Below are positions 5,013 through 33,204 of a stretch of 64,000 bases of DNA, piece by piece (the first letter of the stretch is position 1; every line of letters begins with the position of its first letter). The notes below the pieces were generated by a model, which ran no database searches, was not told the origin of the DNA, and was given only the letters and a program-made list of their open reading frames with translations. The stretch is from positions 124,001 to 188,000 of the forward strand of contig NZ_CABDUX010000002.1 in NCBI RefSeq assembly GCF_901411515.1, given 5' to 3'. This stretch comes from Raoultibacter phocaeensis. Lineage in GTDB: Bacteria; Actinomycetota; Coriobacteriia; Coriobacteriales; Eggerthellaceae. The position numbers and the translations under genes are program-made.

Positions 5013-5694
5013 GATGTCCTCCCTTGTCCCTAGTTGTTGTTACGCCCTGCGCTCGAAGGGCGACGGGGCGATTCTCATGCTAGGGATCGTGCGGCGAAGG
5101 CGCATCGTGCAAAGCGTTCAAAATGCGCGATAGCCGCTCGACTATTCGGACTAGTCCGGGGTAGACAGGGAGAAAAGGAGTCGTACTATAGCGGAAGCCA
5201 GGGGTGCGAAATCGGTTACGAATCTGCAGCTAATAGAATTCCTGACAAGAACGATACAGCATTGCTATAGCGCACTCTCGAGGCAGCCGAAGCCGGCTTG
5301 ACAGCGAAACGGGCCGTTTCTGGCCAATTGTCTCGGCCGTCCCACGTTCTCCTGCCGCAACCGAAGTGCACAAAAGCACTGCACCTTCCTGAACTGGCTA
5401 TATGGATATCGGGGTAACGCCGCGGGCAGCGCATTGAAGCTTTGGCGGCCCTTTTTGTGGGACGGCCGAGACAATTGGCCAGAACAGGGCTCTCCCGCGT
5501 GCAAGGGCCTCTGCCGTCAAGCCAATGCCGACGCGGCCTGACAAGGCTCCCGATTGCTATTAGGCGTTAATGCTTTGAGCGGGCGTATGCTAGTTGTCTC
5601 ACAACGGCCTAGCGATCCGAAGTTGAATAGGCGCGCATGGGTCCATTTCGTTAGGGCAGTCTAGCGGGAATTTACTGTCGTGCTGGTGCGAGTG
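5013..5694. other. 682-bp intergenic region, non-coding
   Basis: No convincing gene on either strand. The region contains a long perfect inverted repeat (annotated separately) and, outside it, two similar segments around 5241-5270 and 5537-5562 that share CCTGACAAG followed by ATTGCTAT. The second resembles a repeat of the first with a shorter gap. Confidence 0.6.
5318..5484. repeat. Perfect 28-bp inverted repeat flanking a 111-bp centre
   Basis: The left arm at 5318-5345 begins TTCTGGCCAATTG and ends CGGCCGTCCCAC. The right arm at 5457-5484 is its exact reverse complement over all 28 bases. The 111-base centre holds a small hairpin (AGTGC, 6-base loop, GCACT near 5365). GGCTTGAC at 5295-5302 recurs inverted at 5516-5523, so the symmetry extends weakly beyond the arms. 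No transposase is present. It could be a small non-autonomous element, a structured RNA or a regulator binding array. Confidence 0.8.
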
Positions 5695-21154: not shown

Positions 21155-21347
21155 TGTTCCCGAGTTCTTGGATTTGGGCACAAAATTGGAGGTTTGACAA
21201 TTATGCAATTAGATACATTAAAAAATTCGAGTAAAAAGGGAACAAAACACCTGGTCGCGAAATTTCCAACCACTCAAAATTAAATACATGATATTCCCTA
21301 ATTGTCAAACCTCCAATTTTGTGCCAAATTCTCGGAACTCGGGAACA
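21155..21347. mobile_element. 193-bp MITE related to the IS3-family element at 31424
   Basis: The ends run TGTTCCCGAGTT and AACTCGGGAACA, with 48-base inverted arms (21156-21203 and 21299-21346) that match except for a few central bases. Both arms end at GGAGGTTTGACAATTA. The roughly 95-base centre is AT-rich and codes for nothing. The left end of the IS at 31424 has the same outer arm and a clearly similar AT-rich centre in the opposite orientation. It has no transposase of its own, so it would need the one at 31666. No target duplication is visible (CCT against TGA). Confidence 0.85.
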
Positions 21348-31423: not shown

Positions 31424-31459
31424 TGTTCCCGAGTTACCGGATTTCGGCACAAAATTGGA

Positions 31460-31580
31460 GGTTTGACAATTAGAGAATATAGTATATTTTGGATTTGAAA
31501 TCACCAGAATTTGCGATCAGGCATTATGTAGGCTGACGAGTAGAATTTTATTATGTAGTAATTTACACAATTGTCAAACC
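31460..31580. repeat. AT-rich module shared with the MITE at 21155
   Basis: Ends GGTTTGACAATT (31460-31471) and AATTGTCAAACC (31569-31580). Read against the reverse complement of the MITE centre, it keeps GAATAT near the start, a GAATTTGCGATCAGG core (MITE: GAAATTTCGCGACCAGG) and a GAATTTTATTATGTA block (MITE: GAATTTTTTAATGTA). These are diverged copies of the same module. Confidence 0.75.
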
Positions 31581-31598
31581 GGAGGTGCGGCAGGAAGC

Positions 31599-31651
31599 TG
31601 GACCGCCGGCAGGCGGTCCACGACCGATCGAGCGGCCCCCGCGGGGGCCGC
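31599..31651 (+). promoter_or_regulatory. Two hairpins in front of the transposase start
   Basis: A 9-bp stem TGGACCGCC / GGCGGTCCA (31599-31607 and 31612-31620, 4-base loop) is followed by a perfect GC palindrome at 31632-31651. The GGAGGGA ribosome-binding site begins 4 bases after it. Such structures often keep readthrough transcripts from translating transposase. Confidence 0.65.
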
Positions 31652-31665
31652 GAGGAGGGAGCCGC

Positions 31666-33111
31666 ATGTACACGGAAAGGGAGAAGGTCCGCTACGTCGA
31701 GACGATGTGGGCCGAGGGGCTCACGCCCCGCGCCGCCGAGCGGAAATGGGGGACCCCGTCCAGGGAGTCGCTGAGGCGGTGGCTGGAGCAGGCCGAGGAG
31801 GGCTCCCTGCCGGCGGAGATGCCCAGGGTGAAGGGGCGCGCCGAGCACGCGCCCCACTCCCGCTACCCCGAGGCCACCAAGGCGGAGGCCGTCCGCCTCT
31901 ACGGCCTCGGGGAGAAGCCCGCGCACATCGCCCGCCGCCTCGGCATCGCCGAAGCGAGCATAATATCGGTCTGGAGCAGGAAGGCCCGCAAAAGCGCTAT
32001 CATGTCCGAGACCGGCGCGGAGGGCGCGCCGCGCGAGGACGAGGGGGCGAAGCCGGGCATGGGGCAGGCGGCGGGATCGGACGACAGGCGGATCGAGGCC
32101 CTCCGGGCCGAGCTCGAGGAGGCGCTCTTCGAGGTGAGCGTCTACAAGGAGCTGATGCGCGACCCAAAAGCCGCAAGCCCGGCGAGCCTGTCGAAGAGGC
32201 GGCTCGTCGGGTTAGGCGAGAGGCTGAGGCGGGACTGCGGGTGCTCCCTGGCCCGGATCTCGACGTTCTTGGGAATCTCGAAGAGCACCTACCTCTACCA
32301 CCGGGCGAGGCTCGATAGCCCGTCCGGCATGACGGACGGGGGCTTCGACGGGGCCGTGGCCGCGGCCTTCGCGGAGAACGGCGGGATCTACGGCTACCGC
32401 CGCCTCAGAGCGGCGCTGGAGGCCGGCGGCGTCCGCGCGCCCGAGCGCAGGGTGCGCGAGTCGATGGCGCGCCAGGGGCTCGTCGCCCGGTGCTCCAGGT
32501 CGGAGAAGAGATGGAGCTCGTACGCGGGCGAGGTGTCGGACGCGCCCGGGAACCTGCTGCTCGGCGAGCACGGGAGGCACGACTTCTCGGCGGACGCGCC
32601 CAACGAGCTGTGGCTCACCGACATCACCGAGATGCGGGGGCGCGACGGCAAGTGCTACCTGTCCGCCGTCGTCGACTGCTTCGACGGCAAGGTCGTCGCC
32701 TGGCGCGCCTCGGAGAGCCCCAACGCCGAGCTCGCGAACTCCACGCTCGCCGACGCGATAGCGACGCTTCGGGAGGGCCAGCGTCCCGTCATCCACTCCG
32801 ACCGCGGCGGGCACTACCGCTGGAAGGGGTGGATCGCGCTGTGCGAGGGGGCCGGCCTCGTGCGCTCGATGTCGCGCAAGGGGCACAGCCCCGACAACGC
32901 GGCGTGCGAGGGCTTCTTCGGCCGGGCGAAGGTCGAGGCGTTCCATTCGCTCGTGCGCGCGGGGGCGCCCGTCGCCGAGATATTCGAGGCCGTCGCGCGC
33001 TACATCACGTGGTACAATGACGGCCGCCTCAAGACGTTCAGGGAGAACGGGAAGAAGGCCACCTGCGAGACCATCGAGGGCCGCCGCAGGAGGCTCGGGC
33101 TGGCGGCCTGA
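31666..33111 (+). CDS. IS3-family transposase, OrfA and OrfB fused
   Basis: 481 residues from the ATG at 31666 (GAGGAGGGA upstream). The N-terminus has two helix-turn-helix units: TPRAAERKWGTPSRESLRRW and KPAHIARRLGIAEASIISVW. Then come a helical linker (IEALRAELEEALFEVSVYKE), an HTH_21-type region (GIYGYRRLRAAL) and an rve integrase core with the DDE triad in LTDITE, HSDRGGHY and GFFGRAKVE. Most IS3 members make OrfAB by frameshifting; here it is one continuous frame. It appears intact and could mobilise both this IS and the MITE. Codons are almost all GC-ending, in contrast to neighbouring genes. Confidence 0.92.
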   Translation: MYTEREKVRYVETMWAEGLTPRAAERKWGTPSRESLRRWLEQAEEGSLPAEMPRVKGRAEHAPHSRYPEATKAEAVRLYGLGEKPAHIARRLGIAEASIISVWSRKARKSAIMSETGAEGAPREDEGAKPGMGQAAGSDDRRIEALRAELEEALFEVSVYKELMRDPKAASPASLSKRRLVGLGERLRRDCGCSLARISTFLGISKSTYLYHRARLDSPSGMTDGGFDGAVAAAFAENGGIYGYRRLRAALEAGGVRAPERRVRESMARQGLVARCSRSEKRWSSYAGEVSDAPGNLLLGEHGRHDFSADAPNELWLTDITEMRGRDGKCYLSAVVDCFDGKVVAWRASESPNAELANSTLADAIATLREGQRPVIHSDRGGHYRWKGWIALCEGAGLVRSMSRKGHSPDNAACEGFFGRAKVEAFHSLVRAGAPVAEIFEAVARYITWYNDGRLKTFRENGKKATCETIEGRRRRLGLAA

Positions 33112-33204
33112 GCAGTCCAAGAATCCTGCCGCACCCCCAACCTCGGATTTTGTGCCAGAATTGACGAACTTCGGAACGTGAGGTGTAGGTATTACTCGGC
33201 AAAA

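Follow-up and report, generated by a model that had tools for sequence, protein, structure and literature searches.

Intergenic palindromes of Raoultibacter phocaeensis, candidate protein-bound DNA sites, are the insertion target of an IS3-family element

The window analysed here, a stretch of 64,000 nucleotides of the Raoultibacter phocaeensis genome, contains an IS-free palindromic repeat of 193 bp at 21155-21347, delimited by the outer boxes TGTTCC...GGAACA. The two halves of the inverted repeat, 21155-21222 and 21280-21347, are 68 nt each and 81% complementary, and as single-stranded DNA the whole element folds with a z-score of -9.2 against dinucleotide shuffles. The conserved left arm GGGCACAAAATTGGAGGTTTGACAATT (21176-21202, plus strand) contains the IS landing site GA-GGTT-TG, and the conserved right arm lies at 21300-21326 on the minus strand (reverse complement, TGGCACAAAATTGGAGGTTTGACAATT). 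Between them, the core motif GACCAGG occupies 21250-21256 on the minus strand (CCTGGTC on the plus strand), its distances to the two arm edges being 73 and 77 bp. A second copy of the palindrome is interrupted by an insertion sequence. Its left 157 bp are found at 31424-31580, ending with the target duplication AACC (31577-31580), whereas the second AACC (33139-33142) together with the last 36 bp of the palindrome forms 33139-33178, with the box TTTTGTGC located 9 nt from the right end of the IS. A third palindrome, noticed at 5297-5505 and spanning 5321-5481, has the same architecture as that at 21155-21347, with a GAACTGG core at 73 and 87 bp from the arm edges. Its arms TGGCCAATTGTCTCGGCCGTCCCAC are unrelated and belong to a different subfamily; therefore, more than one arm subfamily exists within a single genome.

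The IS3-family insertion sequence proper extends from 31581 to 33138 on the plus strand (1558 bp) and is bounded by the terminal inverted repeats GGAGGTGCGGCAGGA and TCCTGCCGCACCCCC of 15 nt with one mismatch, the tips being GG...CC and not TG...CA. Its transposase, a single 481-aa ORF at 31666-33111 on the plus strand, carries the HTH_Tnp_1, HTH_21 and rve domains (PF01527, PF13276 and PF00665) and scores 272.6 bits against the IS3 model NF033516 (cut-off 160). Direct reading of the translation revealed D and E at the D(35)E spacing. In place of the usual IS3 pair of overlapping ORFs joined by frameshifting, a single uninterrupted ORF of 481-508 aa is present in every listed copy. Alignment of the copies identified 13 in the 3.86-Mb genome, the body being exactly 1558 bp, and the 12 copies compared differ by 0-4 of 1558 nt (at least 99.7% identity). 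The target duplication is AACC in 12 copies and GTAA in one, which agrees, together with the terminal inverted repeats, with the 3-4-bp duplications of the IS3 family. The third-position G+C content of the transposase gene is about 0.94, compared to roughly 0.7 in the neighbouring genes, which suggests that the IS came recently from a more G+C-rich genome.

Twelve of the 13 IS copies are flanked on both sides by AACC at one fixed point within an arm of the ~193-bp palindrome. All 12 face the same way with respect to the arm, the longer portion of the palindrome lying upstream of the transposase, and each occupied copy becomes a 193-bp palindrome again once the IS and one AACC are taken out. 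The sequence-only reading had called the 157 bp preceding the IS body the IS left end and noticed that its AT-rich module matches the centre of the element at 21155-21347 in the opposite orientation. The likeness holds: 31424-31580 aligns colinearly and in reverse orientation with 21155-21347 (72% over 157 bp, E = 3.4e-17 against the genome), and the outermost left 49 nt of the latter share 92% identity with 31424-31472, so that the arms are indeed common to the DNA around the IS. Membership in the IS does not hold, as the element includes neither the 121-bp block nor the outer 36 bp. The other occupied copies match 21155-21347 at 72-79% over 141-157 bp, and among all twelve, five are in reverse and seven in forward orientation. 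The opposite orientation arises because the IS finds two equivalent landing sites in a near-palindrome, one in either arm. The proposal that the module moves with the IS ends also fails, since IS bodies at least 99.7% identical are inserted in modules averaging 71%, and the 13th IS copy has no module. With no more than 4 of 1558 nt differing between IS bodies, against only about 71% likeness between the palindromes, the sites are old and the IS is recent; the outer arm, like the AT-rich module, is host DNA predating the IS. The IS has thus entered 12 of 24 sites recently, in one orientation, at a fixed point of the arm and with a 4-bp duplication. The 13th copy (L037), flanked by GTAA, is outside any such palindrome. 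Even there, TTTTGTGC is found exactly 9 nt past the right end, as in the palindrome; we therefore infer that this outer arm box, about 9 nt from the cut, is the feature recognised by the IS transposase. No doubly occupied palindrome was found among the genome copies, which permits no inference because this would be expected by chance with P = 0.16.

The genome has 24 palindromes, 12 empty and 12 IS-occupied, by BLAST, by the arm pattern and by a sequence-only covariance model alike. The module is conserved within a repeat family and is not a random insertion, as had been claimed from the window. The 19 palindromes of constant length have a mean pairwise identity of 71% (range 63-87%), and on alignment the modules resemble one another more closely than random AT-rich DNA would. 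Within the genome, conservation along the 193-bp repeat reaches 94% at positions 23-50 and 144-171 and about 70% in the central block. The most variable stretches of the spacers show 42-49% identity, near random, yet their length is kept. Arm positions 32-36 carry one of two alleles, ATTGGAGG or ATCCGAGG, each side of a copy varying independently of the other. All 24 copies are intergenic, their distance to the nearest larger ORF being mostly 100-400 bp, and their contexts are tandem, convergent and divergent. They lie nearer to dnaA (929.6 kb on contig C1) than expected (P = 0.008, a post hoc test with the two contigs assumed to form one circle). The orientation of the core relative to replication shows no bias (10 of 16 on the origin contig, counted by eye from the placements).

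Among the named genomes, the exact arm pattern was found only in Raoultibacter timonensis. More diverged relatives were detected by the covariance model in 14 of 138 genomes, covering 9 of the 48 genera of the family, and the total is at least 9 genera. The site is thus carried by a number of related gut bacteria. Relatives that were read directly have in common the TGGCA[C/G]A... outer boxes and a central GACCWGG, with lineage-specific inner arms. In general, two arms of ~27 bp flank a core GACCWGGnaTTtTGc, with a core consensus of about gAAAt.gtGACCwGG.aTTtTgc. With one representative per lineage, arm positions 11-27 match at 0.89 within an element and 0.58 between elements, and none of 5000 shuffles was as good. 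A 14-mer core pattern occurs 18 times in G008 and 11 times in its sister species G104, compared to none for the mirror control.

Relatives of the IS in other genera, with transposases 46-78% identical, are inserted inside a palindrome arm in all seven readable cases (L097-L102 and L105), among which L099 and L100 have weak palindrome scores. At nine IS-relative sites found without using the core, GAYCWGG occurs within 16 nt of the dyad centre as an exact match in three (0.14 in shuffles) and with at most one mismatch in six (2.0 in shuffles, P = 0.003). In addition, two relatives of 45-48% transposase identity, L104 and L118, are inside long repetitive inverted repeats, with an off-centre GACCAGG in L104 and no core in L118. 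These internally repeated inverted repeats of L104 (G284) and L118 (G198) (GCAGAAGTGGCCTTCG..., ATTTGCAAA...GGTACGTCC...) may represent other target families. Relatives at about 39% identity (L110, L116 and L123) have no palindrome at their insertion sites; therefore, the habit of landing in palindromes is limited to part of this IS3 lineage.

Three copies are orthologous between G008 and G104. In these three pairs, in which gene conversion between copies could mimic constraint, changes were found at 3 of 156 arm and 4 of 72 core positions, compared to 26 of 225 spacer positions (arms and core versus spacers, Fisher P = 0.0005). A fourth G104 copy has no counterpart at the orthologous place in G008, where another arm subfamily is found with the same core. 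In L146 (G008:C45:1-2200), a palindrome TGGCGGTTTTTGACGG... stands where the G104 member has the arms TGGCAGAGATT..., with the same TGCCTGGTC core and a further GGACCAGGG core nearby, and its arm type is that of the IS target in L098. In L074 (1427-1467 and 1703-1857, in G008 and G104), the palindrome is enclosed by another inverted repeat family, so palindromes of different families are nested; the 150-bp arm of this surrounding repeat recurs at ~70% in many places of both genomes. In Raoultibacter timonensis, a copy is lacking where the orthologue of the 21155 element would be expected. This absence and the one-site difference between the sister species indicate that the sites have no fixed chromosomal positions and also come and go like mobile elements. 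Judged from these alignments, the palindromes appear to be constrained in place over the short term and turned over in the long term.

The distances between the core centre and the arm edges fall into discrete groups, 52, 62-65, 72-74 and 83-84 bp on one side and 66-67, 76-78, 87-89 and 98 bp on the other. This set comprises separately evolved arm subfamilies, including 5321-5481, and IS target sites taken without a length or core criterion, such as L097 (64/77), L099 (64/89) and L105 (64/88). A period of 10.5 bp fits them best, and the observed concentration was not reached in any of 100,000 random sets, with one value per genus or subfamily picked after the fact and three of the cores carrying one mismatch. 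Spacing by whole helical turns usually points to a protein complex assembled on double-stranded DNA. A protein-bound double-stranded site fits the palindromes, whereas a hairpin RNA, a promoter and a MITE of this IS do not.

Based on this anatomy, we propose that the arms are bound by one putative host protein and the core by the same or a second one, with both arms and the core on the same face of the helix. The need to share a face would explain why the spacers vary only by whole turns, and a change in the specificity of the arm-binding protein between lineages would explain why both arms changed together. Copies would be kept by selection where they are located, and the IS transposase would read the outer arm box, using the sites as safe intergenic landing pads. 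In our judgement it is highly probable that these are old intergenic arm-core-arm sites, presumably occupied by protein as double-stranded DNA, and that an IS3-family element has recently settled in 12 of the 24.

Several other explanations were weighed against this proposal. In the sequence-only reading, the palindrome was a MITE that had arisen from the ends of the adjacent IS3 element and was moved by its transposase, on the grounds of the sequence common to the DNA directly outside the IS. The IS ends GGAGGTGCGGCAGGA...TCCTGCCGCACCCCC and the AACC duplication place the module outside the IS, the inverted repeat GGAGGTGCGGCAGGA is absent from the palindrome, and the module, far more diverged than the IS, is also present where no close relative of this IS is found, e.g. 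in R. timonensis. On these boundaries and this divergence the derivation was rejected as extremely improbable. The same reading had offered three roles for the module. The best supported of these is binding by transposase or host factors, whereas the promoter and the small RNA found no support. The promoter was discarded because a scan detected none in the palindrome and because conservation of the TTGACA box does not extend to other genera. The very stable fold and the complementary arms could be accounted for by a structured RNA or by an mRNA hairpin that is processed in the manner of Correia/NEMIS transcripts. This reading is nevertheless most unlikely and was also rejected: no Rfam family matches the palindrome at gathering score, and no covariation between the two arms of one copy was seen within the genome. 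Arm mismatches that could wobble-pair on one strand or the other (G-U versus A-C) are equally frequent, 62:64, and therefore no transcribed strand is favoured. A conserved promoter is absent, and helical phasing of the spacers is unexpected for an RNA loop. A phage origin was dismissed on the lack of matches in phages and viral contigs.

A stronger competitor holds that the palindromes are non-autonomous mobile elements (MITE-, Correia- or REPIN-like) mobilised by another transposase or recombinase, the boxes and their phasing belonging to its synaptic complex and not to a host function. The palindromes are multicopy and intergenic, have the terminal inverted repeats general to MITEs and Correia elements, and are non-syntenic between Raoultibacter species; several arm subfamilies coexist per genome, and one genus shows a recent-looking amplification at ~90% identity. 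Transpososomes are likewise phase-sensitive. Against mobility, no target duplication was found at the ends of the 24 copies, the orthologous intergenic DNA being too diverged or replaced for a clean view of an empty site. A parent transposon was also sought and rejected, as the genome has no longer element with the same arms and all 36 GAGGTTTGACAA arms fall within the 24 sites. Degenerate copies are absent from the genome, and arms and core are conserved in the unmoved orthologous copies. We regard such an element as a real if rather doubtful possibility. A host-functional site is given better odds than a mobile element with a phased-box transpososome, because the copies are conserved in place and none are decaying. 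As for the benefit to the host, we lean towards a chromosome-organising or bridging site, with looping regulation or a recombination site as alternatives. No described repeat family was found to match the palindromes. We suggest, tentatively and at somewhat less than even chances, that they represent an undescribed class of Coriobacteriia nucleoprotein sites, with lineage-specific inverted arms, a GACCWGG core at whole helical turns, selection at tens of loci, a mild origin bias, a co-evolving host protein of centromere-like, DNA-bridging or recombination function, and use as a landing pad by an IS3 lineage.

REPs, Correia elements and similar intergenic palindromes were recognised decades ago, yet there is still little consensus on their purpose. 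The present family unites three signatures rarely found together, namely three-box helical phasing, coordinated replacement of both arms from genus to genus, and in-place conservation despite spacer drift. A host function would therefore be directly testable, and the site could serve as bait for finding the protein. The arm-reading IS would add to this another DNA-recognition protein, evolved separately, that reads the same site.

BIMEs of REPs include REP pairs around an IHF site (RIP/RIB). The palindromes resemble them in being intergenic, in having inverted arms and possibly a protein-bound centre, and in numbering tens of copies. Alignments revealed differences from the 20-40-bp REP hairpin unit with its GTAG- or CGTC-type tag, in that the arms are neither self-complementary nor tagged, the core is another one, the spacing follows helical turns and the arms are lineage-specific. 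IHF binding to REPs has been noted (cited in PMC1525189). IS1397 and ISKpn1 of the IS3 family insert into the REP or palindromic units of BIMEs in E. coli and Klebsiella, the transposase reportedly setting the target (PMC1525189). The IS at 31581-33138 behaves like these elements, with an IS3-family transposase, an abundant intergenic palindromic repeat as the target, and the same position and orientation in 12 of 13 copies, its relatives likewise being in arms. It differs from them in its single-ORF transposase, in a target of ~150-193 bp organised as arm-core-arm instead of a 20-40-bp REP hairpin, and in a cut within a long arm. Correia repeat enclosed elements/NEMIS of Neisseria (PMC10969869) are similar in size range, terminal inverted repeats, many intergenic copies and the lack of an encoded transposase. 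Unlike them, the palindromes have neither a visible target duplication nor a conserved promoter, and their arms are swapped between lineages while architecture and core persist. Compared to REPIN/RAYT systems (PMC2817692, PMC3116915), the REP hairpin and GTAG tag are missing here, whereas inverted repeat pairs, species-specific sequence and apparent co-evolution with a trans-acting protein are shared.
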